The notes beneath the pieces were generated by a model that made no database searches, had not been told where the DNA came from, and saw nothing but the letters and a program-made list of their open reading frames with translations. This document shows positions 33,925 through 57,620 of a DNA stretch of 64,000 nucleotides, in pieces. Where the stretch lies: contig OX387612.1 of assembly GCA_947568835.1 (NCBI GenBank), positions 12,588,001 to 12,652,000 on the forward strand, in the 5' to 3' direction. How positions within the stretch are numbered: the stretch's first letter is position 1; the number at the start of each line of letters is the position of its first letter. The position numbers were made by a program, and so were the translations under genes. The stretch is from Protonemura montana (lineage: Eukaryota > Arthropoda > Insecta > Plecoptera > Nemouridae).

Positions 33925-35322
33925 ACGTCCCCAGAGTTAAGCAACACTGCGCTGAGTCAGGTATTGGATGGGTGACCATCATACACATGACCAGTTCTGT
34001 TCGGGAGAGAGGTTGGAGGGATGGAAGTTAAGCAACACTGCGCTGAGTCAGGTATTGGATGGGTGACCATCATACACATGACCAGTTCTGTTCGGGAGAG
34101 AGGTTGGAGGGATGGAAGTTAAGCAACACTGCGCTGGGTCAGGTATGGGATGGGTGACCATCATACACATGACCAGTTCTGTTCGGGAGAGAGGTTGGAG
34201 GGATGAAAGTTAAGCAACACTGCGCTGGGTCAGGTATTGGATGGGTGACCATCATACACATGACCAGTTCTGTTCGGGAGAGAGGTTGGAGTGATGAAAG
34301 TTAAGCAACACTGCGCTGGGTCAGGTATTGGATGGGTGACCATCATACACATGACCAGTTCTGTTCGGGAGAAAGGTGGGAGGGATGAAAGTTAAGCAAC
34401 ACTGCGCTGGGTCAGGTATTGGATGGGTGACCATCATACACATGACCAGTTCTGTTCGGGATAGAGGTTGGAGGGATGAAAGTTAAGCAACACTGCGCTG
34501 GGTCAGGTATTGGATGGGTGACCATCATACACGTGACCAGTTCTGTTCGGGAGAGAGGTTGGAGGGATGAAAGTTAAGCAACACTGCGCTGGGTCAGGTA
34601 TTGGATGGGTGACCATCATACACATGACCAGTTCTGTTCTGGAGAGAGGTTGGAGGGATGAAAGTTAAGCAACACTGCGCTGGGTCAGGTATTGGATGGG
34701 TGACCATCATACACATGACCAGTTCTGTTCGGGAGAGAGGTTGGAGGGATGAAAGTTAAGCAACACTGCGCTGGGTCAGGTATTTGATGGTTGCCCATCA
34801 TACACATGACCAGTTCTGTTCGGGTGAGAGGTTGGAGGGATGAAAGTTAAGCAACACTGTGCTGAGTCAGGTATTGAATGGGTGACCATCATACACATGA
34901 CCAGTTCTGTTCGGGTGAGAGGTTGGAGGGATGAAAGTTAAGCAACACTGTGCTGAGTCAGGTATTGAATGGGTGACCATCATACACATGACCAGTTCTG
35001 TTCGGGAGAGAGGTTGGAGGGATAAAAGTCAGTACAGCAACTTCACTCGCCTTGCTTATCAGCCTCTCGACAGCATGGATTTGTGGAGGAATCCTGTTGT
35101 TCGCGTTGTACCGTCCTTTGGAAGGGACGTGATGCCGGTGGTCCCCTTGGTCTTCGACAGAAGTAGGCTACGTGCCGGCACCGGGTTTCCCCTCCTCCCT
35201 TCTAGACTAGGTTAGGTTCATCATCATCCTCATCATCATCCACTCATTCACCGACGCCATTAGACCAGTACCGCATGGCCAGTTGTATAACAGTGCTAAG
35301 TTAAACACCACAAATAATAATA
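33925..35322 (+). mobile_element. 5S-rRNA-derived SINE with 12-fold tandem head (copy S1)
   Basis: Begins with a degenerate 5S-like stretch, then about 12 copies of a 91-bp unit whose first 44 bases match the 5S rRNA internal control region (AAGTTAAGCAAC...TTGGATGGGTGACC); the other 47 bases (ATCATACACATGACCAGTTC...) are not 5S. A unique body (CACTCGCCTTGCTTATCAGC...GGCACCGGGTTTCCC) and an (ATC)n-rich tail follow, ending GTTAAACACCACAAATAATA. 5S-derived SINEs (SINE3-like) are known in animals; the multiplied promoter segment is the unusual part. It sits between the two copies of a segmental duplication. Confidence 0.88.
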
Positions 35323-35353
35323 AGTGGCACATACTTGGAATTGACCTCGAAAA

Positions 35354-35572
35354 GTTGTTGCTAGCGACCGTCTAGCGGAAACTAATTGAATGTGTCGACT
35401 AATCCGCGGCCTTCCTTTTCACGCAGGTTTCCACTCAAGCCTTGGTTTACATGGAACGTTGTCCGCGATCTGATTGCTGGTCGCGGTGGGACAGAATCCG
35501 ATCTCCTACCTGCGTCATCGAGACGTCGCTACTGCAGCGTCGATAGATGTAAGTTGGCACGAGCCTTCACAT
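35354..35572 (+). repeat. Segmental duplication, copy 2 (contains exon-like block)
   Basis: Matches 33362-33580 almost perfectly, including acceptor, 135-base block and donor. Flanking similarity continues to about 36000 (CAAGCTTTATCCAAGTTCTC, TTTCGTTCAAAAGCTGGATT). Confidence 0.85.
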
Positions 35573-36070
35573 ACATCTGATAATATATGACTGATACACT
35601 TACCGCAATGGTAAACGCACTCTATTGACAGATCCCAACAATGCTGGCACAAATATATTATGTTAATCCTTCGTCCCCAACAATGAAATATCAGCGCAAG
35701 CTTTATCCAAGTTCTCAAGTCCACAAGAAAATAGTTCTTTGTTTGCCAGTTCTTCACTTTTTCCACACATTTTCCACATTCAATGAAGCAGTGCAATGTT
35801 AGCAAAAACTAGTTCTTGATCTCCACAACAGTTTGTTTGCATTTTGCACTGACTTTCGACCCGTCGTGAACACTAGAAAACAGCTGACAAAACTAAACCC
35901 AATCAAAGGTTCATGACAAGTAAAATAAAGCCCATGTTTCATTTCGTTCAAAAGCTGGATTTGCACTTTTCCCCGAGTAAACGTAGCTGTCCGGAGCATG
36001 TTTTACTGAGTGCAAGAGTCGTCATGTACCTGGCAATGAATCTAATGTCACTTTATTCTGTTGTCTTCAG

Positions 36071-36157
36071 GTGGACTCCACTAGTCGCTGCTGGAAGCCG
36101 ATGCATCTTGGCTTCCTCCGACGAGACCTTGCTTCAAGCCCTGGAAATTGTAGCAAG
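36071..36157 (+). other. Candidate exon, gene unidentified
   Basis: Bounded by TTGTCTTCAG and GTACGC. One frame reads WTPLVAAGSRCILASSDETL. No family is recognised, and its phase does not join the 135-base block above in a stop-free frame. Confidence 0.25.
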
Positions 36158-36453
36158 TACGCTCTGTGAGAGTTTTATCAGGCGTCTGAGGAAACATGGG
36201 GCAACTTTTGTTAGATAGATAACATATTTAATTGCTTGCTTTGTGGGGCTTAACGTCACGTCAGTTCAGAGGCTGTTCAAGTCTCGAGTTCGGGAAATAT
36301 TCATAATTCTTGATTCATTTGTGTGACATGAGAGAAGTCGAGAAAAATTTGGGGACAAGGCCATTGTTGTTAGACTTCCTGTCCAAGTTTTGGATTGTTG
36401 TAGGTTCTTGCTAGAGGCTGTTTCGTTTTTCACAGTTAGATTGGTTCGGTACC

Positions 36454-36540
36454 GAACCGTAGTAGGTTTGTTAGGTTTGTTAGGTTTGTTAGGTTGGTTA
36501 GGTTTGTTAGGTTTGTTAGGTTTGTTAGATTTGTTCGGTT
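36454..36540. repeat. 9-bp tandem repeat (TTAGGTTTG)
   Basis: About nine units; each contains TTAGG, the pentamer of the CCTAA arrays at 4506 and 6428, spaced by TTTG. Confidence 0.85.
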
Positions 36541-36599
36541 TTGGTGTAGAATGGTCGTTTCTTTGTCACTTTGTCCATCGTTGAGGGTCGCTGGAATTA

Positions 36600-37798
36600 G
36601 GTTAATTTGATCTTCTAGTTTTCATGTCCAATTTTTTTTGTCTTCTCTCATGTTGTGTTTTTTTATCTTAGTTTGCCTTACGCCTAGAATATGTAATATT
36701 GTGATCAATTAAGTTAACGTAAAATCATAGCAGATAGAGTCATAAGGGAGAGTAGAGTTTCCTCAGATGCTTTGAGATTCATGTGACCAAATTTACAAGC
36801 CATAGGACTTTATCGCTCGCCTGCATAATGTTCCTGTTTGCACCCGTGAGGCCCGCCTCGGACGTTCGTTTTTCATGGTTTTCGCGCGTCTTAAGTTAAG
36901 CTAATGTTGGGCGATTGATTATAATCTTCACAAATCACAGATTATAATCGGCCATGACCACTGACCTCACGGAACAAACGCTTGGAAATATCAAATAAAT
37001 CACTCTCACAGTTAGCAAGATTTACGTAAACACAAACACGTGAATAGAAATTCAGATATTGTTAAACATTTGAATTGTATTTGATGGCGATATTATTGTC
37101 ATTATATATATATTGTGTTATGATATAAAAATTTACAACCCTACAGCCTTTTAATTGGGATCCCTGGATGAAAAGGAATGTCACGAGTTTGCGGTGCTTG
37201 TAAAACTGGAATCCCTGTAACTTCCACTTCCAAATTTTCCTTCCGCCTTAAGGTACCTCAGTATGATATTATTATTGTACAAGATTTTTGAGTTCAGCCG
37301 GGTTTTCGTTTGATAGTAACGGCCGGTTTAGTTACTCAAGGTAGCAAGAAATCGTATGTGTGTTGGGATGTGGACGCCGTTTAACCCCTGCAGAAAATCA
37401 GGCCTAAATTTTCCTTCCGCCTTAAGGCACGTCTGTATGTTCTTATTAATGTACAAGATTTTGTAGTTGGACCGGGTTTTTGTCTGGTAATTACAGCAAG
37501 TTTAGACATTCACGCTTGTCTGGTAAGTTTCTTATTTTAGTCGTAATTGTGTCCTTTTAGTGCATTCTCAGTACATAAGTCATTCTTATGTCATTTTATG
37601 TGATTTATTTAATTTTGTGCATAGATTGAAGTCGTTTTTGTATATCTTTGAATTATTCGCAATATTTTTAATTTCTTTATGTTCGAATTTGCGCGTATGG
37701 TCTTTTTTCCCATGGTCCATTGCTGAGTTTCTGATTGGCTTAGCGGGCATGATTGTAGCCTCCTAAGGGGTATTTAAATGTCAGCCATGTTTTATCAG
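36600..37798. other. Noncoding stretch with two similar 110-bp blocks
   Basis: 37235-37380 and 37410-37510 share TTTTCCTTCCGCCTTAAGG and GTACAAGATTTT; part of the first (TAGTTACTCAAGGTAGCAAG) reappears inverted at 37953-38010. This suggests an old foldback or tandem repeat. No gene is recognised. Confidence 0.5.
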
Positions 37799-37873
37799 GA
37801 TGTGCCGCTGGTTGAGCCTGACCCCAACAAGCAGCCCATTGAGATTGTCGAATTGAAACATCTTGTAAAATGA
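37799..37873 (+). other. Candidate terminal coding exon, gene unidentified
   Basis: After the acceptor TTTTATCAG, a 24-codon open frame (DVPLVEPDPNKQPIEIVELK, then HLVK) ends in TGA. The composition is protein-like and unlike the surrounding AT-rich sequence, but no upstream exon joins it with certainty. Confidence 0.3.
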
Positions 37874-38039
37874 TGACAGCATAATGAGGTTTCTTGAGGT
37901 AGAAGAAAATTTGAGCCCGAATTTTCTAAATGGGTTTAAAATTATCCACGACACGATTTCTTGTTATCTTGAGTAACTAAACCCGGCTTCAACTACCGAA
38001 CGAAAATCTATTGATTGAATAATTGATTATTGGGGTTTT

Positions 38040-38105
38040 GACATCTGGTCATGCAGCACTGGTCTTATGGTGACGGTGAATGAGCATGCACTGTCCGGCT
38101 GTGAC
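38040..38105 (-). mobile_element. Diverged SINE tail fragment
   Basis: GACATCTGGTCATGCAGCAC, then TGGTCTTATGGTGACGGTGA, is a diverged match to the reverse of the 5S-SINE 3' tail. Confidence 0.5.
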
Positions 38106-39179
38106 ACTGTTTTATTCGGTTTTCGGAATCGGTAAATAAAGGATCTGGCGTCAACTGAATTAAATGTGACGAGTTGTCACATTTGGCCAAATTGGCAGAC
38201 CAAGACATTTTGGAAATGGTGCGCACCGATCGAAGTTTGGTGGTTAAATTGTACGATACAAACAAGGAATTCCGAAAGTTTCATTACTCGCTAAATGCGC
38301 TGCGTTTTAAGATAGCAGTGTCGCGACCTATCTCAATTGCCAAAATACCCCCGAGAGAATGGGCAGTTCATCAGCACGTGACACGAGCTGCATGACAATG
38401 TAGCACTTGGGTAAACTCGCACGTGCAATTTCCAAAAATATGGCGTAAGTTTGCCAAAGTAATATTCAAAGCAATTCAAGACTTTTTTGAACTTGAATTT
38501 AAATGCCGTCTCCATTTTTTTCTTCTTCTTATTTTTATTATTTGTGGTGATAGGTCCCAAAGAAAGTGGCTGGTGTCAGAGCCTGGGCAGAAATTTCGTC
38601 TCGCTTGTGTACTTCGAGGGTCTAACAGCCATGGAAATGTTGAAAAATTTCAATCAAATCAAAGTAATCCTGCAGCGTAAACTCCACTTGCACGTGCAGT
38701 AGGAATGGAATTGGGTGCACCGACCTATGCAATAATGCAGGTGTGATGGGGAATGCTACTATGCCTACAATGATATGATATGATATGAGAGTGCATGTTT
38801 GATGTGGATGTTTTGATTAATCAAGTCGCATCGATAGCCTCGACGGTATCTTTTTAAAAAATGCGGCTAAACATACTCTGTCTGGATTCATTGCATGGAC
38901 TTATTGGGAGTATTTCGCTATAACCACACTCGCTGGCACTAAGCCTCGGATAAGCAAACACATTCTCTGCCTCGTGTGGTTTCCCGAACATAAACAATGA
39001 AATCGCATAGGTACCCAGAAATGACGATATGTATGTTGCATTAGCCTCGGCGACGCGTCCAAAGATGCCTTTGACACTCGATGCATGCCGCCCGATACTG
39101 GCTATCGCTACCCAGAGTAAGATTTCGATCCTCGGTAAGGATGAAAACTAAACAGATCTAAACATTGATATCAAGCAAG

Positions 39180-39640
39180 TGAATAATTTATTGTTGTTAC
39201 TACCGGACTCGAAGGCCGGACGGTGCCTTCACCTGTCTTCCTGCCTCGCTCTGGACGACGGCAACCCTTGCTATGAACACACCGACCTAGGAACCATCCC
39301 CTGTCAACGCGGGAGTGAACCAGTTTTTGATGTTCGTCGTCACGCGTGTAATTTATGCCGGTTGTGCCTTCGGCCGGCGAGTCTTTTGTATTTACTGCCG
39401 CCGCTCGGTACTGTTGCCCGATCCGAAAATATCAATAAATGTACCAGTCCAATTACCGACGGCTGCCGGGTTTCTGAAGCCTGGCGCCCTTGTTTGCTGT
39501 ATTTTCTTATTTGTCTCGGTAAGTCCGTTAGTCGTCGTAGTTGGCGTGCCGACGTCGAAACCCTTCGCGGGTACCGACGGCGGCTTCATGCGGCCAACAC
39601 TTCTACGCTCACCATCGTGACGCATGGTGGCTGACAATAT
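39180..39640. other. GC-richer island with overlapping open frames
   Basis: Markedly higher GC than its surroundings and open in a plus frame (39179-39634) and a minus frame (39392-39637). No motif, splice site or family is recognisable in either. It may be a degraded transposon ORF or an exon of an unseen gene. Confidence 0.25.
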
Positions 39641-40175
39641 GTTGAAAAACTGTTTGAATATTTCGGTTCTTCAATTTAAAAATTATAAAATTATAAAAAT
39701 GTAATCTACAACAAAGCCTGACGTAACAATACGTTTGAGAATAGGTTGAGGCCGTTGCGTCCTCAATGCCTCTAGTCATGATCGCGATGACATGCTAGTG
39801 GCAACTTCATACTGGATATCAGTCGGACACCAGTTATCTGAGGGAAACTAAGTTGGTGGTAACCAGCTTCTATAGACGCCTATTAGTCTTTATTTGTTCG
39901 TCATATTCGCTACGGTCCTATATTAGGGTTCCCTAATTTTCTATTAAATATCTTATAAGTCACCATAGTCACGACTTTTGTCCACTGCTTGCCTAGTTTC
40001 CGGTTGGCGCTGTTTCAGCGGCAGGTCAGGGACTCAACACCTTCAGCACCTCTTACACCTATAACTTCTCTAACACCTCTAGCATCTGAATTAAGAGGGA
40101 AGAGTAACCATATGCCGGCAAAGAAACAAAACCTCCTGACTGCTCGATGATGCCTTCTCCATCAACGACTTCGAC

Positions 40176-40358
40176 CCAAGATTTCCAACACGCCGAACCG
40201 TTCGGTGGTCACCCATCCAACACCTGACCCAACGCAGTGTTGCTTAACTTTCATCCCGCCAACCTCTCTCCCGAACAGAACTGGTCATGTGTATGATGGT
40301 CACCCATCCAACACCTGACGCAGCGCAGTGTTGCTTAACTTCGGTGATCCCAGCGAAG
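40176..40358 (-). mobile_element. 5S-derived SINE fragment, two head units (copy S2)
   Basis: Read on the minus strand: GATCACCGAAGTTAAGCAAC, a first 5S-like unit, the 47-base linker, a second unit, then GCGTGTTGGAAA, a piece of the 5S 5' half. No body or tail. The order shows 5S 5' half sequence following a unit, as if two heads were joined. Confidence 0.75.
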
Positions 40359-40443
40359 GGCCCACTAACATGTAATTATTACTGATACTTATTGAGAATG
40401 CACCGAGTTCAATATTCTACGGTTGACAATTAAGACCCTGCCG

Positions 40444-40461
40444 CCCCCCCCCCCCCCCCCC
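40444..40461. repeat. Poly-C run
   Basis: About 18 consecutive C immediately before a 118-bp tandem array; each array unit ends in CACCCCCTTC, so the run may be an expanded copy of that C tract. Confidence 0.9.
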
Positions 40462-41041: not shown

Positions 41042-41184
41042 GATCTTCAAGAAAAAAACCATGCATTGTTTTATTGCTGCGTTTTGTCGCAGATAATAAA
41101 TCGTCAGATTCTTCGTTGAACTTCAGATCCCACGGATTAGGTTAGGAAAGCAATTAGCTACTGATGCAATTAATTGATTGAGTA

Positions 41185-41460: not shown

Positions 41461-41466
41461 CTATCT

Positions 41467-43198
41467 GTCCTAAACTGAAATATTTTTTTAAATATTGATG
41501 TTAAAAAAATGAAGTGCCACGCTTCACCATTTAGTCAGTAGAATGATAGTAGAGCCTAGCTGCTGATAATATTTTCTCGAAAAAAATTAGCTGTTTTCAC
41601 GCTGCTGAAGACCCATTATTAACGCTACATTAGTGTAGAAAGCAAATGTTGAAACACTAAAGCGCAAAATGTTTGCAACATAAAAACCTGTAGGTAAATT
41701 TGCAATACATCACCCAGTATGACCATGCCTACCTCGGCCACTGCTTGACAGCGATGGATGCTTCGCACGTCGTAGCATGGAAGGACCATAATCTTTTGTC
41801 CATTGTACAGTTTCTTCCTCCAGAACGGTTGGTTCTGGATCTTCGACCCCTGCTTCTGGCACTTTTAAGTGAAGATCACCCATCATCAACTGAAATAATA
41901 ACCATTTGGATGTCAATAAATTGAAAATTTGCATGATACTACACAAACTTTCAGGACATTGTATTTTTAAATAAATAGTAAGACCTGAAAATTAAGCCTG
42001 TAGTAAGCCCTGAACTGGAAAGTACAGTTTCCGTGACAAATAAAACAGTGAATAAAGCAATGGAGATATTCAAGTTCGAAATACATTTTAGGGAATAATT
42101 AGATGCAGAAAATAAGGTGAATAGTGTATGTACGCTAAAATCTTACTTCATCTTCTTTTAAAAGAGCTCCCTCGTCTTCCTCCTCGGAATGCATATCCCT
42201 GTCCACCAGGGCTTGCCTACTGCTTGACGCTGCAAAAAATGCCAAGTCCTTGATTAGTATTTACGTGGCTCGATAAATCCTGCATAATAATAAATAATTT
42301 GTTATAATATTCTTCGAGTGCTTCCTGGCACAGTCGGTGAGACCAAGTCCAAGTGCCTGGATGCATAGGATGGTGCCTGCCATATAAGTTTGCTACAACA
42401 AGCAATTATTTACCTAGATCGCTGTCGAAGCATGCAGGCAAGCCTTTGGCTGACAGAGATATCATTCCGAGGACTCCCTCCAAAACTTCCTCGTCCTTCT
42501 CTTTTGGAGGAGTGAATGGCCCGCCCCCAGTCTGCAGCTGGTACTGCCTTCGCTCGCTGTGCATTTTTCTGGCACGGCGCTTCAGAGTATCGAACTTCAG
42601 CCTTAGCGATACTGCAGTCCGTTTATTCAGCGTCCCGCTGTTGACCTTTTCGGCAATTTTGTCCCATGCTCGCAACTGTAGGTAAAACAAATATGAGCAT
42701 ATCATTGGCAAGAATGTCTAGTGAGTCGGCCGAACAACTAGCCATGCAGCCTAACCTAGTGCTCAAAGGCAAATATTGTTCAATAACTAAAAAATACAAA
42801 AATAAGTAACTTACCTTTTCACGCCAAGTCGTGGCGTCTGTTTTTTTGCATTCTATTATGCTTGCGTAATCTTTTGCCACGGCTAATAACTTCTCGCATT
42901 CTTCGCTATTGAAGTTAAAATTCCGAACTCGCTTGCCTGCGTTCGCCATCTTTGTTGACAGTCGAATGCTATAAATGTGAAGTAGGCGCTGTCGAATCGT
43001 CACGAGATATGCGATTAGGGGTACCAATTTCAAAAACAAAAATAGCTCCGGCGCGATTTGCCGCTATTCGACGATTAGTTTAATAGGAGGTCTAACTGGC
43101 GTGGTAATACACCCACCGTTTTACAACCTCCTTTTAGCTTAATGGGTGAATAGCTAATAGGAGGTTAATAGGAGGTTTAAAAGGACATTGTACAACTG
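41467..43198 (-). mobile_element. Inverted partial copy of the Harbinger element (palindrome left arm)
   Basis: Reverse complement of 43285-45016: every coordinate pair I checked sums to 86483, so the arms have no net indel over 1.73 kb, and only a few substitutions are visible (near 42985 and 43135). It includes the Myb gene exons 1-4 but stops before exon 5 and has no transposase. The outer four bases of its TIR are missing (CAACTG runs into AACATT). Confidence 0.93.
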
Positions 43199-43280
43199 AA
43201 CATTCTGTATTTTTTAATTAAATAATGACTGTCTGTGTTGATCAAATGTATTGATCAAAATCGACAATAATCTTACTTAA
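43199..43280. other. Spacer at the centre of the Harbinger palindrome
   Basis: 82-86 bases of AT-rich, non-palindromic sequence (with a local TTGATCAA-type repeat) between the two arms. This asymmetric centre would stabilise an otherwise cruciform-prone palindrome. Confidence 0.85.
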
Positions 43281-43533
43281 GGGCCAGTTGTACAATGTCC
43301 TTTTAAACCTCCTATTAACCTCCTATTAGCTATTCACCCATTAAGCTAATAGGAGGTTTTAAAACGGTGGGTGTATTACCACGCCAGTTAGACCTCCTAT
43401 TAAACTAATCGTCGAATAGCGGCAAATCGCGCCGGAGCTATTTTTGTTTTTGAAATTGGTACCCCTAATCGCATATCTCGTGACGATTCGACGGCGCCTA
43501 CTTCACTATAATAGCATTCGACTGTCAACAAAG

Positions 43534-45430
43534 ATGGCGAACGCAGGCAAGCGAGTTCGGAATTTTAACTTCAATAGCGAAGAATGCGAGAAGTTATTAG
43601 CCGTGGCAAAAGATTACGCAAGCATAATAGAATGCAAAAAAACAGACGCCACGACTTGGCGTGAAAAGGTAAGTTACTTATTTTTGTATTTTTTAGTTAT
43701 TGAACAATATTTGCCTTTGAGCACTAGGTTAGGCTGCATGGCTAGTTGTTCGGCCGACTCACTAGACATTCTTGCCAATGATATGCTCATATTTGTTTTA
43801 CCTACAGTTGCGAGCATGGGACAAAATTGCCGAAAAGGTCAACAGCGGGACGCTGAATAAACGGACTGCAGTATCGCTAAGGCTGAAGTTCGATACTCTG
43901 AAGCGCCGTGCCAGAAAAATGCACAGCGAGCGAAGGCAGTACCAGCTGCAGACTGGGGGCGGGCCATTCACTCCTCCAAAAGAGAAGGACGAGGAAGTTT
44001 TGGAGGGAGTCCTCGGAATGATATCTCTGTCAGCCAAAGGCTTGCCTGCATGCTTCGACAGCGATCTAGGTAAATAATTGCTTGTTGTAGCAAACTTATA
44101 TGGCAGGCACCATCCTATGCATCCAGGCACTTGGACTTGGTCTCACCGACTGTGCCAGGAAGCACTCGAAGAATATTATAACAAATTATTTATTATTATG
44201 CAGGATTTATCGAGCCACGTAAATACTAATCAAGGACTTGGCATTTTTTGCAGCGTCAAGCAGTAGGCAAGCCCTGGTGGACAGGGATATGCATTCCGAG
44301 GAGGAAGACGAGGGAGCTCTTTTAAAAGAAGATGAAGTAAGATTTTAGCGTACATACACTATTCACCTTATTTTCTGCATCTAATTATTCCCTAAAATGT
44401 ATTTCGAACTTGAATATCTCCATTGCTTTATTCACTGTTTTATTTGTCACGGAAACTGTACTTTCCAGTTCAGGGCTTACTACAGGCTTAATTTTCAGGT
44501 CTTACTATTTATTTAAAAATACAATGTCCTGAAAGTTTGTGTAGTATCATGCAAATTTTCAATTTATTGACATCCAAATGGTTATTATTTCAGTTGATGA
44601 TGGGTGATCTTCACTTAAAAGTGCCAGAAGCAGGGGTCGAAGATCCAGAACCAACCGTTCTGGAGGAAGAAACTGTACAATGGACAAAAGATTATGGTCC
44701 TTCCATGCTACGACGTGCGAAGCATCCATCGCTGTCAAGCAGTGGCCGAGGTAGGCATGGTCATACTGGGTGATGTATTGCAAATTTACCTACAGGTTTT
44801 TATGTTGCAAACATTTTGCGCTTTAGTGTTTCAACATTTGCTTTCTACACTAATGTAGCGTTAATAATGGGTCTTCAGCAGCGTGAAAACAGCTAATTTT
44901 TTTCGAGAAAATATTATCAGCAGCTAGGCTCTACTATCATTCTACTGACTAAATGGTGAAGCGTGGCACTTCATTTTTTTAACATCAATATTTAAAAAAA
45001 TATTTCAGTTTAGGACAGATTTTAATCCTCAATATAAAAACCCAATGTAGGCTAGGCCTTAATTAAAAGTGAAAGACCTATTCCTAGCCTACTCCCCTAT
45101 CCTTACTCCCCCTATGTCCTTTCCCCTATGTCCTTTCTTTTCACATGTGCAGCTGTTCACAATCGAGACTGGGTGCGAAGGCGGACACCATCTCTTGGAC
45201 TTGGCCAACAGAGCCTACCATCCGGTAGCTCATCAAACTACGCTCTGCTGGCCAAGTCCAAGCGGGAGCTGGCTGAGATGATGAAGGTCGCTGCAGCCAC
45301 AGAACAAGCGGAGAAAACGGAGCTCCATAAATTAAAAATTTCAATTAATGAAGCAAAGCTGCAAGCAGCCTTGCTTGATGTGCAAATTAAACAAGCGCAG
45401 CTTGATAACCTTAAGAATACAAATAAATAA
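43534..45430 (+). CDS. Harbinger Myb/SANT-like DNA-binding protein
   Basis: Five exons, 43534-43668, 43808-44069, 44254-44336, 44594-44750 and 45153-45430, all with GT/AG borders and correct phases (915 nt, 304 residues). The N-terminus (FNFNSEECEKLLAVAKDY, TWREK, RAWDKIAEKVNSG, KRTAVSLRLKFDTLKRRARK) is a Myb/SANT-like domain of the FSBP/NAIF1 kind that accompanies Harbinger transposases. The middle is acidic (HSEEEDEGALLKEDE) and the C-terminus is a predicted coiled coil (RELAEMMKVAAATEQAEK, then KLQAALLDVQIKQAQ). I chose the ATG at 43534 because it begins MANAGKRVRNF directly before the domain. The gene appears intact. Confidence 0.87.
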
Positions 45431-45475: not shown

Positions 45476-46860
45476 CTAGAGAAGTTGCCTAAAATGTTCA
45501 ATGACCGCATTTAGCACAGCATTGTTGTCTCCCTGTGGATTGACGTCAAGGTCCGGCATTTGATCCCTCTCCAAATCAAGCTGCGGCAACTCGGGGTCAT
45601 GGGGTGGCTCGTCTTCATGCTGATCAATGGCCAGATTGTGGAGGACAGCACAGGCCACGATTACCGCCTGAATGTTGGCTAGATTTTTAAGTCTCATCCC
45701 CAGAGACAGCACAGGGAAGCGACGTTTCCATGTCCCGTATTGCCGCTCTACGGTACTGCGTGTTCGAATTTGGCTCTCATTGTACAATAGCTCTTCGGGG
45801 AGGTTGGGATTACGCAGCGGCGTTAATAGATACGGTTTTACGGTGTAGCCAGAATCACCCAGGATCAAACCATTTCCAAACTCCCCTGTTTCAAGGCGGG
45901 CTCGAAGGACAGAGTTGTTGAAAACGGTCTGATCGTGTGCTGATCCTGGCCACCTTGTAACTATATCTAATATGCGCAACTGTGCATCGCTAACAGTTTG
46001 TACGTTCAGCGAAAAGAAACCTTTCCTATTTCTGAAGTCTTCAGCATTATCTCCTCCTGAAGTATTTAGGAAGATAAAGGAACCAGGTTGGTAATGTTGG
46101 TAATGTGACAGGATAGTATAGAATGTAAGTGGGTAGTTGTTGTGAAATATTACCTAACGATTGGATTTTCACGTGAGTGCAGTCGATGCACCCACGGACA
46201 AGAGGAAAGCTATTCATCTGGTAGAATTTAAGTTGAGTAGCCTCCACCTCTTGCTGCGTCAGCGCAAACTTAACATATTGTGGCCGCAGCAATGCAATGG
46301 CCCTGCTGACCCGCTGAACAATGCGGCATGCAGTTGACTTGTGGACGCCAGTGAAGTCGCCCACAGATATCAACATGCATCCGGTAGCGTAAAATATTTA
46401 TTGGAGCCACCGAATCATTACTAGAGCAGAAAATTTCCAGCTTCATTAGCTGCTGATGCAGAGACAATACTTGCTAGTAGAAAATAATGAAAGTTAGGTT
46501 ATGCGTCTCATAAAAATATCGGCGGGCCAACTTTTGCAAGTGCTACGCAAAAAACCCATTCAGTGCTCTGGATCCTAGGCCACTTTATAATTTTAACGCT
46601 GAGTAGTGAGTACAGGCGTTACAGGGGAAGATACCAACTAACCGGTCAGTTCGGTGCTCCAGGTGATTAACTATTTGATCGAGAAGCATGAGGACAGTGG
46701 GTTTTCTTAATCGAAACCGCATGAAAAATTCTGCATCTGTCCACATATCAAAATGATTTACGCGAGGCCGAATGATCTTTGCCAGCCTCCCCCTTGCTGC
46801 CAGCAACGCGAAAAGTTCGTCTTCCTCATCGCTGTCAAAATTCAAGAGATAGTCGGCCAT
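45476..46860 (-). pseudogene. HARBI1-type DDE transposase, probably broken by 8-bp deletion
   Basis: Exons on the minus strand: 46860-46635 (MADYLLNFDSDEEDE...HRTDRLV), 46469-46154 (LSLHQQLM...YATGCMLISVGDFTGVHKST...GCIDCTHVKI) and 46056-45476 (GGDNAEDFRNRKGFFSLNVQ...WPGSAHDQTVF, LGDSGY, RSTVERQYGTWKRRF). The DDE_Tnp_4 catalytic acids are present (GCID, the SAHD region, VE). In exon 2 the frame changes around 46385 at ATTTTACGCTACC, where an 8-bp loss between short direct repeats would explain both the frame change and the exon phases. Intact length would be about 376 residues, similar to HARBI1. Converges with the Myb gene (46 bases between stops). Confidence 0.85.
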
Positions 46861-47786: not shown

Positions 47787-47960
47787 AAGACCAGAGATTG
47801 ATATTCTGAATGGTTGTTCGAGTGCACGGGCTTTTAAATGTAATATTATAATAACACCAAGAAATGCAGGCTTCTTTGCTAATCAGAGGTTAACAAATGT
47901 ATTCCAGGAAATTGAATTCAAGCTGTTCATGTTGATTGACTTGCACTGTTTTGACATCTG
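47787..47960. repeat. Flank duplicated in inverse orientation at 57620-57790
   Basis: Near-identical in reverse complement to 57620-57790 (GTTCGAGTGCACGGGCTTTT, CAAGCTGTTCATGTTGATTG). The identity continues into the adjacent SINE body (to about 48260 / 57320), so SINE plus flank was copied together. Confidence 0.88.
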
Positions 47961-48880
47961 TCTATGTGGCACTGGTCTAATGGCGTCGGTGAATGAGTGG
48001 ATGATGATCAACCTAACCTAGCCTAGAAGGGAGGAGGTGAAACCCGGTGCCGGCACGTAGCCTACTCCTGTCGAAGAGCACCAAGGGGACCACCGGCTTA
48101 ACGTCCCTTCCGAAGGACGGTATAACGCGAACAACAGGATTCCTCCACAAATCCATGCTGTCGAGAGGTTGATAAGCAAGGCGAGTGAAGTTGCTGTACT
48201 AACTTTCATCCCTCTAGCCTCTTTCACGAACAGAACTGGTCATGTGCATGATGGTCACCCATTCAATACCTGACCCAGTGCAGTGTTGCTTAACTTTCAG
48301 CCCTCTAACCTCTCTCCCGAACAGAACTGGTCATGTGTATGATGGTCACCCATCCAATACCTGACCCAGCGCAGTGTTGCTTAACTTCCATCCCTCCAAC
48401 CTCTCTCCCGAACAGAACTGGTCATGTGTATGATGGTCACCCATCCAATACCTTACCCAGCGCAGTGTTGCTTAACTTTCAGCCCTCTAACCTCTCTCCC
48501 GAACAGAACTGGTCATGTGTATGATGGTCACCCATGCAATACCTGACCCAGCGCAGTGTTGCTTAACTTTCATCCCTCCAACCTCTCTCCCGAACAGAAC
48601 TGGTCATGTGTATGATGGTCACCCATCCAATACCTGACCCAGCGCAGTGTTGCTTAACTTTCAGCCCTCTAACCTCTCTCCCGAACAGAACTGGTCATGT
48701 GTATGATGGTCACCCATCCAATACCTGACCCAGCGCAGTGTTGCTTAACTTTCAGCCCTCTAACCTCTCTCCTGAACAGAACTGGTCATGTGTATGATGG
48801 TCACCCATCCAATACCTGACTCAGCGCAGTGTTGCTTAACTTAGGTGATTTTATGAGAACCGGTGTTTCCAACACGCCAA
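47960..48880 (-). mobile_element. 5S-derived SINE with about seven head units (copy S3)
   Basis: On the minus strand: a nearly complete 5S-like head (GCGTGTTGGAAACACCGGTT, CTAAGTTAAGCAAC), then about seven 91-bp units, then the body and the (ATC)-rich tail. This copy keeps more of the 5S 5' half than S1. Confidence 0.88.
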
Positions 48881-51261
48881 ACCGTGGGGTGAGTGGATAA
48901 TAAAGGAATGTTGGTTAGTATTCAACAATTTGATTGGGTAAGAATAAATCAGGAAAGATTTAAAAGTACTACGCGTGAGACGTGGGAGCTGTGGTCAGAG
49001 TAGGGGCGGTATGATCCACCCCTCCTCGGGGGACCATGTGCAGAAGTCACAGAGCGCATGTTAGTAGGTCAGTCTGCCAAACATTGGCGAGTGTTGTGGA
49101 AGCAAATACGAGTGCTTTTCAAAACAGCGCGGATTTGGCTCTCGCTGATCGGCAGTGCATTTACAGAGAAATAACTCCAAGGGATTACTAATTGTTAATT
49201 AAACCGTGAGTAATTGAGACATACAATCTCAAGGAAGGAAGGAAGCAGATCTTGGAAACATGTCGACTAACTACCCGAATACCAACGTATGTTTCAGTGT
49301 CAACTAGACTGTTTAGAAGGTATTGCGATTTGATTCGATATTATCCCATATCCCTGAGGTTGGAATGTCACCGACTCGACGTTTACGAGCAGACCGATCC
49401 TAGCAGCGAAGTAAGATTTACAACCCGACCAGCGATTTGCCAGAGATTTCAAAAACAGCGACCAGAACAGCTGCAGAAAATTCAGAGGCGTTTTGTTGTC
49501 ATTTGGGACAGTTTAACTAAGATACTAAAAGAACATTGTCTATGGTCTTTGCTTGAGACTCTAATAAATGTGACGAGACGAGTAGGACCGATTTGTTGTG
49601 TGACTACAATTTAGATGGGTTACTGAAATTTAAAACAAATACGTACCTTGCCGACGTCGGTTTGTTTTACTCTCGTGATCTCGTGTCAAGTCTGCTAGCA
49701 GCTGTTATTGCATGTATTGCTTGATTTTGTTACTTTTGATGTTTGGGCAACGATCGAACGGACGATGAATTCCTCTCACGAACTACGACACGAACTGTGA
49801 TGAGTGGAGATTGGTTGGTGACATCGAGATCAGCTGGACTCTTGGTGAACTTGTCGACCCAGACATTGTCTTGCAAATAAATCTACCAACTCATTTCCAC
49901 CGCGTCGGTGTCATTCCGTGAGTGATTTCTTTTTGTTCTCTAGCGCTAATTATCAACTAAGATATTATTTACTGTTTATTTGAGTTCACGCTTATACGTG
50001 GACAACATTTTGACTCCGTAGTCGCACGTCACTGCAAGAGACAAATGAAGACTGGAGAGTATTTTCTCTGATATTATTAACCCATCTAATTTAATTTCGT
50101 TTGATGCCCAACCCATCTCAAGTTTCTCCCATGCAGATATTTGTCATCTAAACATCACCATGAAACCCGCTGATATTTTATTACACATATTTTTATTACA
50201 CTCCAGTATGACTTTTGACTTGGGTCAAAGAGACGCGACATCTTCCCCCTCTGTTTCCCGCCAATGAACGTGAACTCGTCCTAAAAACATTCGATTAAAA
50301 TCTTAAAAAATAAGTGTAATCGTTCCTCTAACCGCGATCAACGCCGTCCCGTAAGTTTCACAATTTGTTTTTCTTTGATTTTGCCAATAATTGAACAATC
50401 CTGATACTTTAGTTTCGTCTCGTGCTATGAAATTAGTTTTGCCGGCTCAAGATTGCCTGAAAGCCAGGGCTGGCTAGAACACAATATTCAAATTATTACC
50501 CTCATCGATAAATAATTTATAACCTTATACCGGGTGGTACACGTGGGAAACTTGACGATTATATTTATTTTCTATAATTATCTCCACTTTTCTCATCATT
50601 CTTTCATTGGCCTTTAATTTTATCGAATTTATTTGTGATTTTCACATTTCAAATATTACTGTGAAGTCGGTCGTCATTGGTTGACATTGTTCTACCATTG
50701 GTTTGACGGCACGCGCCGTCCATAGTCTTCGTTAGGCGGGGCACTCGGAAATATTACCTAGCTCCGCCATTTTGAGCCGGGAAACCGTTGAGTGGACGCC
50801 TGGTCGACCCGCTAGCTGGGTGATAAGACAACTTGATTTATTGCGTTATAAATGTACAAATCCTGACACAACCAGTTCTGTTTGTGAGACAAAACTCTCC
50901 AATATAATATTAGTTAATAATTAGAGAGCTACGCACTATTATTAAACCGAATAACTGCAAGATAATTGTGCATTGAAAGTTACTTGGGGGCCGTGCTCAG
51001 GGTAGGTTTATAGATGGCTTTACTTAGCAACAGGTTTCCAACTGTTATCTCGCCATTTTCACCTAAAACACTTGTTTCATTTAACCACACACTTGATCGA
51101 ATAAATTGATTCGTTTTTCGCTCGGCAATAGAAAATCTGTTAGCATAATTTTCCAACATCCAGTTCCCTGTCTCAGCTCTTGGAAAACTTCGGGTGACCT
51201 ACGAGATTAATTATTTACAACTACATTTTTATGATAGTCTTCTGTTTCATTGCTTTCTTTC
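48881..51261. other. No gene recognised
   Basis: An open frame at 49252-49614 (120 codons) has unremarkable composition, no domain and no splice context. The rest is AT-rich without repeats that I could match inside the window. Confidence 0.5.
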
Positions 51262-51269
51262 CATACATT

Positions 51270-52369
51270 CAGTGATGTATTCGTAAAATTTTTAGTGGGG
51301 GTACGCAAAAATGACCCATTTTTTTTGTGTCGGCGGGCGGGGTGGTGGGGGGGGGGAGGAGGAGGAGGAGGAGGAGACCCAAGGCGAATGCACCGAAAGA
51401 GTGGAAATATTCGGGCGCAGCTCCAAGTGAATTTTTATTCTAAGGTTTCTTTTGGAGTCAATCTACGAGTTTACGATGAAATTGGGCTTGGAATGACATG
51501 GTCAGAACTGCATTTTTAATTACGTAATGATTTTGAGAAAATTAAATTAATGCCGCCCTCTCATGTCTCCACCTTCCCACATTGTTGCAGTCTTTAAATT
51601 TGGTGGGGATTCGGGAATCTGGTAAAAGAAAGTCAATCATTTTAATCGGATACTGGTTTTAATTTTTGTTGAAACTACCCATAGATACGCGCGTACTTTC
51701 GCGTTGACGAGATTACATCAGTTTCCACAATGACTCTTTTTCATTAAGCTCCTTGCTGCTGCGTGATGCGACGTTGGTGGTGTCTTCAACTTCTCCCAAA
51801 CCAAATTTTGGTTTTTTAGGAGGAGCAAGGCCCCAAAGGGAATGCAAATCCACTTGCTTCCTCTTCTGCATCTTGAATTGAACTAACTCGTCCAGTGTGG
51901 CTCGTATGTGGCATTTTGGTTATTCTTAGTATTTTTTTTTCTTTCCTGCGAATTCTTATTATTTGAAGCGGGCTTGCTTCTGAGAGCTTGCACCGCCGTG
52001 CGACGCCGCGAAAGCGGCTACCGACTTCCCTACGTGATAACAGTAATATGGTTCCAACTAACCCCTTTGTTGCAAGTCACGACGCCGACATAATTCCTGT
52101 CTACCTACTCTTAGCACGTTCGCATACAGTGGCATTCTTGCTAGGTCTATTTTTAAGTAAGTGGATTATTAGAAATAAAACCCGTAACTGGGATATTTTC
52201 GCCTTGAAAATAAAGAAGTGCAGGATATTCCGAATAATCATAATTTAATACTGCTTTCCCGTGCGTTCACCTGCGTTCCCTCAAAAATTCAAAGTGGGGG
52301 TACGGCCAAAAATAAAATTAATAGTGGGTGGACTGGGTACACCCGCGTGCATTGACCAATACATCACTG
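51270..52369. mobile_element. Non-autonomous hAT element with 8-bp TSD
   Basis: CATACATT at 51262-51269 and again at 52370-52377 brackets an element starting CAGTGATGTATT and ending AATACATCACTG. Inner subterminal GTGGGGGTACG motifs are also inverted. The 8-bp duplication and the CAGNG terminus are hAT hallmarks. Near the left end is a G/GGA-rich tract (51337-51374). A short hAT-type N-terminal ORF is retained (51713-51871). Confidence 0.92.
51713..51871 (-). pseudogene. hAT transposase N-terminal remnant
   Basis: 52 codons, MQKRKQVDLHSLW, then APPKKPKFG, resembling the basic, Phe/Leu-containing leader found at the N-terminus of TTF-type/ZMYM-like hAT transposases. It stops after 52 residues; no zinc finger or catalytic region is left in the element. 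Confidence 0.5.
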
Positions 52370-52986
52370 CATACATTGTAATGAAAGCAAACTGATCCAG
52401 ATGATTGCAAGGCTTGTTCACATGTCTGATCCCACATTTCTGCATCATGTTGATTCATTCTTTTTAAATTCATAATGCTACTTTCTGTGATCAAACGTGA
52501 ATTATTTTTTCAGATTTTTAATTGCTATATTTGGCATTTTACAGAATATCTAAAATCCTTCTGGCCAAATACTGATTTTGTATGGACAATTTTAAATCCA
52601 TTTTTATAGTTTCAAATTAATTACACGTTTTTCTGCTTGCTAGTAACTAGCAAATAATATTTTCAATAACAATCTCAAGTACCGCTCCTAAATTGTGCCC
52701 ACCTTTGCTCTGTCAGCTCGGCCCAATCCCAGCCTCCCTTGCCGCTATTTCAAATGTCCAGACCAGTTCGACAGCAGCCACAAGCTTTGTAATGTTACAG
52801 ATACAAACTTTCCGCTGCCGTCCCATGCGACCATCCAATCCCATCACAATACTTCACAATTAAACTCATCATCATATCGCCCTGAACTTACGTGTGCTGC
52901 TACACCGCAGACACATTTCAACAATTTTCCCGCTACTTTTCCAAATTTGGAGATCATATCGACTCTTTGATACTCATAAAAATAAA

Positions 52987-53255
52987 ATGACTTTCACACT
53001 TCTAGCAGAACTTGTTTCTCTAAGCCTTCAGGAACTTCAGGAAAGACTAAACGCGCTCCAGGAAGCTTTAACACTGATGTATAATTGCAGATCGGGGAAA
53101 CTTGGGACAACTGACCGCACCACGCTTCGCAAGGGATCAGTCGAGTGCCGAGGAGAACAAGTGACTGATATAACAATTGACGTCGGCAAGCCGATACAAC
53201 GACACCCGATTGTGAACGCAAGGGACCTGCAAACAAAAGCTCCCGTCACTGGAAG
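52987..53255 (+). CDS. Candidate 5' coding exon, unidentified protein
   Basis: ATG at 52987 opens a frame with an amphipathic, coiled-coil-like start (LAELVSLSLQELQERLNALQ) and continues to an excellent donor (GGAAG/GTAAGT at 53255/53256). No family is recognised and no second exon was found downstream in this window. Other frames are also open on the minus strand, so coding status is uncertain. Confidence 0.35.
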
Positions 53256-53642
53256 GTAAGTTTTGTTAACAAGAATTGATAGCGATCGGTGAATGACCCA
53301 GTAAGCACGTGAGCGTCGTCCATTCTCAGCTGTTTAATAACCAATTGTTGCACTTGTCTGCACCTAAGAAGGATACTTGATGGAAACAGATGAGTGCGGC
53401 AAGGAGTGGTTTGGAGCCACTGGCTGACGTTGGTCAAGCTTGCAGTTCTGTCAAAATTGTTTAAGCTTAAACCAACGTTTCCACCGCCTTGTCTTGGTCA
53501 TCTTTCATACTGCGAAAACAGCTGGTAGTCGCAGCTTATAAGCCACCTAGACAGCTTAGGATGAAATCTGATTTTAATTGCAAACGCTTGCAATGCGCGG
53601 GGTATTTTATTATTATCAACACAATAACCGTCTCAAAAATTG

Positions 53643-53694
53643 ATGGCCAAATGGGGACTCGAACCTGTCGCGGGAGTTGCTCTGAACCATTGAG
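53643..53694 (-). ncRNA. tRNA-like sequence, shortened (left arm)
   Basis: Minus strand TAGCTCAATGGTTCAGAGC (A-box type) and GGTTCGAGTCCCC (B-box type) with no room for a full anticodon arm; a tRNA-derived Pol III promoter rather than a tRNA gene. Confidence 0.6.
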
Positions 53695-53714
53695 CTATCT
53701 AAAAACAATCCAGT

Positions 53715-53786
53715 GTCCAAGTAGCTCAATTGGTTAGAGCAACACCCGCGACAGGTGGAGATCGGGGTTGAGTCTGCGTTTGGGCA
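53715..53786 (+). ncRNA. tRNA-like sequence, 72 nt (right arm)
   Basis: Can fold as a cloverleaf: acceptor GTCCAA/TTGGGC, D arm GCTC/GAGC, anticodon stem CACC/GGTG, T loop region GGGGTTGAGTC. The base before the expected anticodon is G, not the near-universal T, and the T stem is weak, so this is a tRNA-derived SINE head or pseudogene, not a working tRNA. Confidence 0.6.
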
Positions 53787-54029
53787 TCAATTTTTGAGAC
53801 GGTTATAGTGTTGTTAATAATAAAACACCTTGACAGCTGTTTTCTGTTCAGTACTGGGTGGTCAGGATAAGCGTAAGGTCGAAGCCCAATCGAGCCTGTG
53901 ATTGGCCAGTCGTTCATCAGGCTCGAAGACCGAGCAACGCTTGGCGGGATTGGTTACGGTCGTGACATCGGGCGGTGAGGTCTCACATTACCGTGGCGAT
54001 CGGTGTGTGTAGACCGTTTGTTATTATTA

Positions 54030-54745
54030 TTTGTGGTGTTTAACGACGCACTGTTTTGACAACTGGCCCTGCGGCACTGGTCTAATGGCGTCGGTGAATG
54101 AGTGGATGATGATGAGGATGATGATGAACCTAACCTAGCCTAGAAGGGAGGAGGGGAAACCCGGTGCCGGCACGTAGCCTACTCCTGTCGAAAAGCACCA
54201 AGGGGACCACCGGCTTAACGTCCCTTCCGAAGGACGGTACAACTCGAACAGCAGGATTCCTCCACAAATCCATGCTGTCGAGAGGTTGATAAGCAAGGCG
54301 AGTGAAGTTGCTGTACTAACTTTCATCCCTCCAACCTCTCTCCCGAACAGAACTGGTCATGTGTATGATGGCCACCCATCAAATACCTGACTCAGCGCAG
54401 TGTTGCTTAACTTTCATCCCTCCAACCTCTTTCCCGAACAGAACTGGTCATGTGTATGATGGTCACCCATCCAATACCTGACCCAGCGCAGTGTTGCTTA
54501 ACTTGCATCCCTCCAACCTCTCTCCCGAACAGAACTGGTCATGTGTATGATGGTCACCCATCCAATACCTGACCCAGTGCAGTGTTGCTTAACTTTCATC
54601 CCTCCAACCTATCTCCCGAACAGAACTGGTCGTGTGTATGATGGTCACCCATTCAATACCTGACTCAGCGCAGTGTTGCTTAACTTTGGTGATCTAACGA
54701 GAACCGGTGTTTCCAACATGCCAAACCGTTCGGTGTAGACCGTTT
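54030..54745 (-). mobile_element. 5S-derived SINE with four or five head units (copy S4)
   Basis: The best-preserved head: minus strand CGGTTTGGCATGTTGGAAAC, ACCGGTTCTCGTTAGATCACC, AAAGTTAAGCAAC, matching 5S rRNA almost from its start to the GGGTGACC of the C box. Four 91-bp units, body and (ATC)n tail follow, ending GCACTGTTTTGACAACTGGC read on the plus strand at the 3' end. Confidence 0.88.
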
Positions 54746-55215
54746 GGCTGTCTGCTTTCCGTCGGTCTCGGAAAGGTTCGTTGGTTTGGATTCTCATCGT
54801 TAACTCTTCGTTAGGCTTGATATGATTAAGATTTATCTGAATTGTCGCGGCCTTACGACAAAGTTGACGTCGGCTTAGCTCGGTTAAATTGACGCAGTGA
54901 TGAGGAAGTCTGTCGGAAAGAGGTCACAAACATCACCTTTGCAGAAATCATTGTCGACAATTGTAACACATCTTATGTTGAATTACGCCAAGCTTTTTTT
55001 TAGGAAAAAAACAGTTTCATCAGAGCAAAATTCTACACTTTTTTTGTTTGCTTGTAATGTTCTTAAAATTTGTTTGATTAAACACCCTGCTGAAAAATCT
55101 TACGTAAGATCTTGTAAGATCTTACAAGATCTTGTAAGATCTTGCCAAGAACTTGCAAGATCTTGCCAAGAACTTGCCACGATTGTTTAAGATCTTGCCA
55201 AGTTCTTATAAGATT

Positions 55216-55445
55216 TTTAGAAAAACTATTTGAACTGGGTTTTGAATGCTAAGTAAAGGGCTACTAAATTTCCCAACGTTTCGTAACATATACTAGTTAC
55301 TTCTTCAGAGGTTTGAGCAGTCCTGACAATTTTCCAATAACAAAAGAACCACATAAAATTATAACAATTACCAAGTTCAAGCTTCCTAAATGCATCTAAA
55401 CAAAATAATCAGGGTCAATAACTTAAAAACTAATGTATTGTGTAT
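55216..55445 (+). repeat. Family F arm nested in the CCCTGCTGAA element
   Basis: AACTGGGTTTTGAATGCTAA through GGGTCAATAACTTAAAAACT matches 3852-4114; a single arm. Confidence 0.85.
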
Positions 55446-55575
55446 TTGAGTACGTATATTGAGTACGTGATGGCCTGATGTACGTGATGGCCTACGTGAT
55501 AAGCCTGTTTCGTTCAGTACATCACGTATTTTTGAAGGCTAGCGTTTATGAGTTTTCAAGGCTTATTCTCATTTC

Positions 55576-56270
55576 TGTCCAGGGCTGGGCCAAAAATTAA
55601 GACCATCACAGATCGAAAGCCCATCACGTACTCTATCATCTGTGACAATTTCAAGGGAGTACCCCCCCTTCATTTTCTCGCAAAAAAATGATAACCAAAA
55701 TTTTGTAAAAGTTAGCCTTTTTTGTCCAGGGCTGGGCCAAAAATTAAGACCATCACGAATCGAAAGCCCATCACGAACTCTATCATCTGTGAAATTTTTA
55801 AGGGAGTACCCCCACTTCATTTTCTCGCAAATAATTGATAACAAAATTTTGGTTAAAGTTAGCCTTTTTTTGTCCAGGGCTGACCCAAAATTTAAGACCA
55901 TCACTGATCGAAAGCCCATCACGTACTCTATCATCTGTAAAAATTTCAAGGGAGTACCCCCTCTTCATTTTCTCGCAAAAAATTGATAACCAAAATTTTG
56001 TAAAAGTTAGCCTTTTTTTGTCCTGGGCTGGGCCAAAAGTTAAGACCATCACAGATCAAAAGCCCATCACGTACTCATTCATCTGTGAAAATTTCAAGGG
56101 AGTACCCCCACTTCATTTTCTCGCAAATAATTGATAACAAAATTTTGGTTGAGATTAGCCTTTTTTTGTCCAGAGCTGGGCCAAAAATTTAGACCATTAC
56201 AGATCGAAATCCTATCACGTGTTCTATTATCTGTGAAAAATTTAATGTTGTCTTTATTTGCTTTCATGCG
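55576..56270. repeat. 148-bp tandem array (about 4.7 copies)
   Basis: Unit starts at 55576, 55723, 55871, 56019 and 56167 (TGTCCAGGGCTGGGCC, ATCGAAAGCCCATCACG, AAGGGAGTACCCCC). Copies differ by a few percent. Open frames on both strands come from the repeat. Confidence 0.93.
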
Positions 56271-56439
56271 TTAAGACCATCACAAATTGCCAAGAAATTG
56301 GCAAGATCTTGCAAGATCTTGCAAGATCTTGCTAAGAATTTTCAGCAGGGCAGACAGGTCAGTGTTAAAAAGACATTTCAAAATACAATATAATACTTAA
56401 AAATACATATGGAGATACATAGGATACCCACATAGGTAT

Positions 56440-57620
56440 GACTTAGCTACCAAGTCACCGAAGTTAAACAACACTGCGCTGAATCAGGTATTGGATGGGT
56501 GACCATCATACACATGACCAGTTCTGTTCAGGAGAGAGGTTGGAGGGATGGAAGTTAAGCAACACTGTGCTGGGTCAGGTATTGGATGGGTGACCATTAT
56601 ACACATGACCAGTTCTGTTCGGGAGAGAGGTTGGAGGGATGAAAGTTAAGCAACACTGCGCTGTGTCAGGTATTGGATGGGTGACCATCATACACATGAC
56701 CAGTTCTGTTCGGGAGAGAGGTTGGAGGGATGAAAGTTAAGCAACACTGCGCTGGGTCAGGTATTGGATGGGTGACCATCATACACATGACCACTTCTGT
56801 TCGGGAGAGAGGTTGGAGGGATGAAAGTTAAGCAACACTGCGCTGGGTCAGGTATTGGATGGGTGACCATCATACACATGACCAGTTCTGTTCGGGAGAG
56901 AGGTTGGAGGGATGAAAGTTAAGCAACACTGCGCTGGGTCAGGTATTGCATGGGTGACCATCATACACTTGACCAGTTCTGTTCGGGAGAGAGGTTAGAG
57001 GGTTGAAAGTTAAGTAACACTGCGCTGGGTCAGGTATTGGATGGGTGACCATCATACACATGACCAGTTCTGTTCGGGAGAGAGGTTGGAGGGATGAAAG
57101 TTAAGCAACACTGCGCTGGGTCAGGTATTGGATGGGTGACCATCATACACATGACCAGTTCTGTTCGGGAGAGAGGTTAGATGCATGAAAGTTAAGCAAC
57201 ACTGCGCTGGGTCAGGTATTGGATGGGTGACCATACACATGACCAGTTCTGTTCGGGAGAGACGTTGGAGGGATGAAAGTTAAGCAACACTGCGCTGGGT
57301 CGGGTATTGAATGGTTGCCTATCATGCACATGACCAGTTCTGTTCGTGAAAGAGGCTAGAGGGATGAAAGTTAGTTCAGCAACTTCACTCGCCTTGCTTA
57401 TCAACCTCTCGACAGCATGGATTTGTGGAGGAATCCTGTTGTTCGCGTTGTACCGTCCTTCGGAAGGGACGTTAAGCCGGTGGTCCCCTTGGTGCTCTTC
57501 GACAGGAGTAGGCTACGAGCCGGCACCGGGTTTCACCTCCTCCCTTCTAGGCTAGGTTAGGTTGATCATCATCCACTCATTCACCGACGCCATTAGACCA
57601 GTGCCACATAGACAGATGTC
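56440..57620 (+). mobile_element. 5S-derived SINE with about ten head units (copy S5)
   Basis: Starts with ACCAAGTCACCGAAGTTAAA (5S-like), then about ten 91-bp units with point differences, then body (CACTCGCCTTGCTTATCAAC), (ATC)n tail and GCCATTAGACCAGTGCCAC. The body, tail and 170 bases beyond are an inverted duplicate of 47787-48260. Confidence 0.9.

Follow-up and report, generated by a model that had tools for sequence, protein, structure and literature searches.

The window examined here is a stretch of 64,000 nucleotides from Protonemura montana (Plecoptera, Nemouridae; contig OX387612.1, positions 12,588,001 to 12,652,000 of the forward strand), and a 91-bp unit is found in five stretches of it. 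Tandem Repeats Finder (TRF) places arrays of this unit at 33935-35029 (12.0 copies, plus strand), 48200-48842 (7.1, minus), 54317-54687 (4.1, minus) and 56461-57373 (10.1, plus), and the sequence GGATGGGTGACC occurs 32 times in the window at no more than one mismatch, against 0.20 occurrences expected. The five arrays of the original prediction are thus present beyond chance and their positions hold to within about 10 bp, with the first array itself beginning about 10 bp further in than the 33925 that had been given. The arrays belong to a dispersed 5S-derived short interspersed element (SINE) of the SINE3 type.

In the window, in 30 loci found through the body and in further loci, the element shows the same order: a head, H, of 48 nt where it is kept, a number n of 91-bp units, a body of about 290 bp and a tail. 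The unit consists of AAGTTAAGCAACACTGCGCTGGGTCAGGTATTGGATGGGTGACC followed by a 47-bp linker. Its bases 1-44 match the region of the genome's own 5S gene that runs from box A through the intermediate element (IE) to box C, these three being taken at their usual limits. Against this gene the 5S-like slice of the unit gave a local score of 56 (maximum 29 in 500 shuffles) and H a score of 50 (maximum 29), while the linker, at 19 (maximum 31), showed no match; all three slices were shifted by one base, the unit slice comprising the preceding base and unit bases 1-43. The predicted division into 44 5S-like and 47 unrelated bases is upheld by these scores. An n = 1 copy is about 430 bp long, with a 5S-like head of about 92 bp (H together with the 44 bp of box A, IE and box C), the 47-bp linker, the body and the tail. 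AACACCACAAATAATAATAA or a variant resembling (CAAT)n closes the body, and tails are (TAA)n- or (CAAT)n-like. Since the units carry just 44 bp of 5S, intact 5S genes are absent from the repeat, and the Rfam 5S cut-off is reached in the window solely where the first unit follows a long H, in the 54 kb copy (61.2 bits) and the 48 kb copy (42.7 bits), far below the 108.7-117.5 bits of 47 scored 5S genes elsewhere in the genome. 5S genes on contig C11 (70-105743) lie on both strands with a period of about 9.5 kb, so that one larger repeat holds them.

The first window copy, on the plus strand, has 12 units without H (33935-35029), then the body with a (TAA)n tail (35031-35325) and a 3′ target-site duplication, GTGGCACATACTTGG, at 35324-35338 (plus strand). 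The 5′ partner of this duplication is preserved in the paralogues L033 and L052 (n = 4). A paralogous empty site of the insertion, with the target site single, lies at 33281-33440 (plus strand), where 134 of 150 aligned bases are identical to the joined flanks of L033. The window copy, which is itself locus L019 of the sample described below, is a member of a duplicate family accounting for 14 of the 73 sampled entries. The second stretch, at 40182-40341 (minus strand; delimited from the sequence and by BLAST of the unit), holds one full unit, a 45-bp part unit and a head piece in which GGTGACC abuts ACCGAACGG, the joint of a 92-bp form considered below. It has neither body nor tail; the body and tail said to be shared by all copies are therefore those of the other four.

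On the minus strand, the 48 kb copy comprises H (48844-48891), 7 units (48200-48842) and a body whose 3′ end has diverged (47930-48200). The 54 kb copy, on the same strand, comprises H (54687-54734), 4 units (54317-54687) and the body with a (TAA)n tail (54021-54317), between target-site duplications CAAACGGTCTAC at 54735-54746 (5′) and 54009-54020 (3′). The last copy, on the plus strand, has 10 units (56461-57373), with H reduced to a few bases (CACCG before the first unit), and a body at 57373-57643. All four long arrays were delimited by TRF and BLAST of the unit, and those of 12, 7 and 10 units also by unit variants. The copies that had been placed at 47960 and 56440 look like one insertion that was duplicated and now carries 7 and 10 units, because a 3′ flank is common to both; their 5′ flanks differ. 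Their ends at 47930 and 57643 are unlike a (TAA)n tail, and to this extent the tail is not shared.

Head, body, tail, target-site duplications and the empty site together bear out the proposal of a mobile 5S-derived SINE. Sampled loci L019-L048 are the 30 best matches to the window body, a sample tilted to young copies, and L049-L078 all come from contig C1; the 73 entries with unit and body fall into 54 independent groups, 45 of which have both ends for a duplication test. Of these 45, 24 are flanked by target-site duplications (score at least 9), compared with 1.25% among 1755 shuffled pairings, and the insertions that have them include n = 2, 3, 4, 5, 6 and 8. Inverted pairs of arrays about 4 kb apart on C1 were considered as terminal inverted repeats of a DNA transposon and this was rejected: the pairs in L049, L050 and L051 are one duplicated region with two SINEs on opposite strands, and L052 is a rearranged relative.

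Across the 258-Mb genome, at up to 3 mismatches and with a reversed-pattern control that gave 0 every time, there are 38,485 91-bp units, balanced between the strands (19336/19149), 6554 heads and 8868 unit-body junctions. Copies with n = 1 number 2906, followed by n = 2 (576), n = 3 (444) and n = 4 (331), counts that rest on different patterns and are not strictly additive; for n = 0 there are 2 matches, each with 3 mismatches. The distance patterns used gave the correct n for 38 of 43 sampled copies with a head, and among 37 independent headed sample copies n is 1 in 16 and 2 to 13 in 21. Copies with n = 1-4 account for about 6700 units, so that, as an approximation, most of the 38,485 belong to arrays that are longer or have no head, or to the 92-bp form. 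The single unit is thus the commonest class counted, as would be expected were a single head the rule, yet multi-unit copies occur throughout the genome and are not peculiar to this locus, with hundreds in each of the classes n = 2-4. An array of 22 units without body lies at L053 2006-3979 (C1 at about 62-64 kb), about 60 kb from the contig start. Between about 29.9 and 31.9 Mb of C1 the exact unit-body junctions among the matches listed are nearly all on the plus strand, either as an artefact of the listing or as a real feature; among the exact unit matches listed, at least four minus-strand ones of L061 are absent.

The arrays had been taken either as a heritable architecture or as the result of expansion after insertion, and there is evidence for both. 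L038 begins at unit base 59, continues with 4 full units and is flanked by the target-site duplication TTGACTTAAGT; L057 begins at unit base 53, continues with 7 full units and is flanked by ACACTGGACTCC. Because both are truncated inside the array and yet flanked by duplications, the data support more than one unit having been present at insertion or made during it. That array length also changes at the DNA level is supported by duplicates of one insertion that differ in n. In one such set n is 4, 8, 10 and 12; the copies with 8, 10 and 12 have both flanks in common and those with 4 retain H and the original 5′ flank. Other sets that share at least one flank have n = 10/9/10 and 13/6/3/5, and the duplicated pair in the window has 7 and 10. 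L020 lacks two units that are present in the window copy, L049 has one 4-unit block twice, and in L036 a single unit type with four variants recurs four times.

The account that we consider probable is that the promoter cassette of a 5S-derived SINE became a variable-number tandem repeat through a rare founding duplication, the spread of array-carrying RNA and later remodelling in DNA. The founding step would have been a 91-bp duplication between the AAGTTA that opens the box A region and the AAGTTA at the border of linker and body. Copies carrying arrays would then have multiplied by retrotransposition, as the truncated copies support, and array length would later have shifted in DNA by gain or loss of one or several units, through unequal exchange or slippage, as the duplicated insertions support. 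Founding duplications look rare because n = 0, the deletion product, is nearly absent.

Were every copy instead to insert with one unit, its array being lengthened only later by unequal exchange or slippage, the length differences among duplicates, the private multi-unit blocks within arrays, the concentration of arrays at chromosome ends and the size of the n = 1 class would all follow. The units are also slightly closer within arrays than between them, the divergence being 0.043 within an array and 0.052 between arrays of independent insertions (23 arrays). These two values are nevertheless nearly equal, and near what is expected if most units predate or accompany insertion. Such purely local expansion is unlikely on three further counts: a truncated copy with n = 1 would contain no complete unit from which an array could grow and so could not give rise to L038 and L057, n = 0 copies are almost absent, and two positions distinguish arrays from singles. 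At base 22, 11 of 16 singles have A, as do most units in 5 of 23 arrays (p = 0.007); at base 34, 7 of 16 singles and 1 of 23 arrays have A (p = 0.004).

A second form of the repeat bears on another possibility, that arrays are made during insertion. Here GGTGACC is fused to ACCGAACGG to give a 92-bp repeat of the entire 5S-like head, with 2410 such junctions genome-wide. L061 has six 92-bp heads in tandem on the minus strand (1132-1637) without a body, where no clear target-site duplication was found by eye, and elsewhere a double head with three 91-bp units and the body after it. A double head with n = 1 is found in at most 109 copies (69 at up to 2 mismatches), an upper bound as some of the 3-mismatch hits overlap ordinary n = 1 places. 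Using the AAGTTA repeats of an n = 1 RNA, the reverse transcriptase might jump back and copy the unit repeatedly, and the 92-bp form would then come from a jump that leads from the 5′ end of one RNA to box C of a second. The short identical sequences found at the joints would suit this, truncated arrays could be accounted for, and the 92-bp joint sits at the element's own 5′ end, a border that exchange between DNA copies need not respect; jumping is for that reason possible above all for the 92-bp form. As a general source of the arrays it seems improbable, since it predicts units that are identical at insertion and match contemporary n = 1 copies, whereas bases 22 and 34 set arrays apart from singles and L057 has two alternating unit types; forward jumps should moreover produce the n = 0 copies that are so scarce. 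That there is no mobile element at all, but a cluster of 5S genes or a satellite derived from 5S and dispersed by chance, is very improbable, as the repeat is indeed tandem and 5S-like and occurs in arrays without a body (the 22 units of L053 and the 92-bp heads of L061) but has a common body, tail, target-site duplications and an empty site, while the 5S genes are found in other places and the linker is missing from the one that was compared.

Under the preferred account of a promoter cassette turned tandem repeat, each unit would be a complete type I control region for RNA polymerase III (Pol III), so that a 5′-truncated copy would retain at least one; L038 and L057, though truncated, retain 4 and 7 complete predicted regions. 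Transcription could also start within the array, as with mouse L1 monomers. The linker (47 bp) is about as long as H (48), and a start about 48 bp upstream would accordingly fall at about base 42-46 of the preceding unit. From the 5′ end to the end of the body, 17 of 23 arrays are free of TTTT, compared with 6.7% of base shuffles, although the 23 share one consensus and are not independent; this is compatible, at the level of sequence, with a Pol III transcript crossing the arrays. Retroposed 5S promoters are viewed as weak and in need of upstream signals in the available portions of PMC3272025 and PMC8010984, and the monomers of mouse L1 are said, in what is available of PMC6454616, to preserve promoters through truncation-prone retrotransposition. 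By analogy these arrays might be tandem Pol III promoter monomers, the first in a SINE, in which each unit is a working control region, truncated daughters stay transcribable, the missing upstream context is supplied, and arrays are selected for and continually rebuilt by exchange, a suggestion that we regard as possible but doubtful.

Several observations weigh against the preferred account or its promoter extension. Reverse-transcriptase jumping on n = 1 RNA could likewise yield truncated arrays within target-site duplications. The rarity of n = 0 is weak evidence, because promoterless n = 0 copies could not multiply. Target-site duplications flank 1 of 10 insertions at n of 8 or more against 23 of 35 at n of 6 or less (p = 0.003), although by eye L048 and perhaps L032 would raise the former to 3 of 10; being scarce in the longest arrays, they suggest that much in long arrays may come from later rearrangement. 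On C1, 24 of 25 copies with n = 2-4 lie within 5 Mb of a contig end, against 26 of 56 with n = 1 (p = 1.2e-5), and in the first 10.95 Mb of contig C2 the corresponding numbers below 5 Mb are 19 of 20 and 26 of 44 (p = 0.003); both comparisons rest on exact-match entries among the matches listed and may be incomplete. Such clustering is in keeping with a higher rate of exchange towards chromosome ends, or with DNA there that is younger and more often duplicated. Units are closer within than between arrays in 17 of 23 arrays, and the ratio of unit to body divergence does not differ significantly between singles and arrays (permutation p = 0.18). The 5′ ends do not cluster at the predicted internal start, and a start at unit base 42-46 is without support, the three truncated, duplication-flanked copies beginning at bases 2, 53 and 59. 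The 5S part is more variable among units than the linker is (0.065 vs 0.046); the copies thus show no sign of constraint on it, and the stronger constraint that might have been expected was not seen.

The window holds other repeats and elements. A long interspersed element (LINE) reverse-transcriptase frame, split over two frames, lies at 4506-6444 (minus strand; Pfam RVT_1, E 6.7e-23 for 4856-6133), with about 27 copies of CCTAA/TTAGG at its 3′ side; this repeat resembles the arthropod telomere repeat and the frame is possibly that of a telomere-repeat-associated LINE. A 72-bp tandem repeat at 8398-9989 (22 copies) is open over long stretches as a 24-residue repeat. At 58393-62244 there are about 82 copies of a 47-bp satellite, beyond which GAC, GAAGACCG and CGAGATTTGG repeats extend to 63921. 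A DDE transposase frame at 45479-46153 (minus strand; Pfam DDE_Tnp_4), which we take to be HARBI1-like, and two near-identical inverted reading frames at 42623-43860, one with a Myb/SANT-like match just under the Pfam cut-off, are perhaps parts of Harbinger-type transposons.

The VNTR composite retrotransposons SVA and LAVA, which comprise Alu-like and SINE-R or L1 parts, also contain an internal tandem array, one that is not known to be a 5S-type Pol III promoter. They are non-autonomous, their arrays are remodelled in length in DNA and they are confined to hominoid primates, according to the accessible part of PMC4432496; array length changes in DNA here too, in the duplicated insertion with n = 4, 8, 10 and 12, but the head is 5S and a genome of 258 Mb is far below hominoid size. 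Mouse L1 has a variable number of tandem promoter modules at its 5′ end (PMC6454616, in part) but is a LINE that is autonomous and has monomers of about 200 bp and a Pol II promoter, whereas the present element is a SINE with a 5S-type promoter. Ajax and Cassandra, terminal-repeat retrotransposons in miniature (TRIMs), have captured a 5S promoter fragment in both long terminal repeats (LTRs); they are LTR elements, and head-to-tail multiplication is unmentioned in the portion available of PMC10886601. Dimeric SINEs such as Sbg9 of the German cockroach have more than one SINE module per element, though these are two different SINEs fused and not an array of a promoter cassette (PMC9191728, in part). 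Closest in plan are the 5S-derived SINEs of the SINE3 class, HaSE3 of Helicoverpa and PxSE4 and PxSE5 of Plutella, which have a head with box A, IE and box C, an unrelated body, a short-repeat tail and target-site duplications (PMC3272025, PMC8010984, each in part). One 5S-related region is described for them there, and the word "tandem" is absent from both main texts, whereas the promoter part of the present element occurs in 1 to more than 10 copies. No description of a SINE with a tandem 5S head was found among the titles and abstract openings listed by searches of the open-licence PMC literature, and we class the element among the 5S-derived SINEs, where its architecture is new.

Because the promoter of a SINE has to be part of its RNA, a copy is normally disabled by 5′ truncation. 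A tandem promoter could render SINEs tolerant of truncation, as has been proposed for the monomers of mouse L1. As a single genome offers thousands of copies that range upward from n = 1, the influence of promoter dose on the success of a SINE becomes directly testable. The arrays also illustrate the seeding of tandem repeats by SINEs near chromosome ends.

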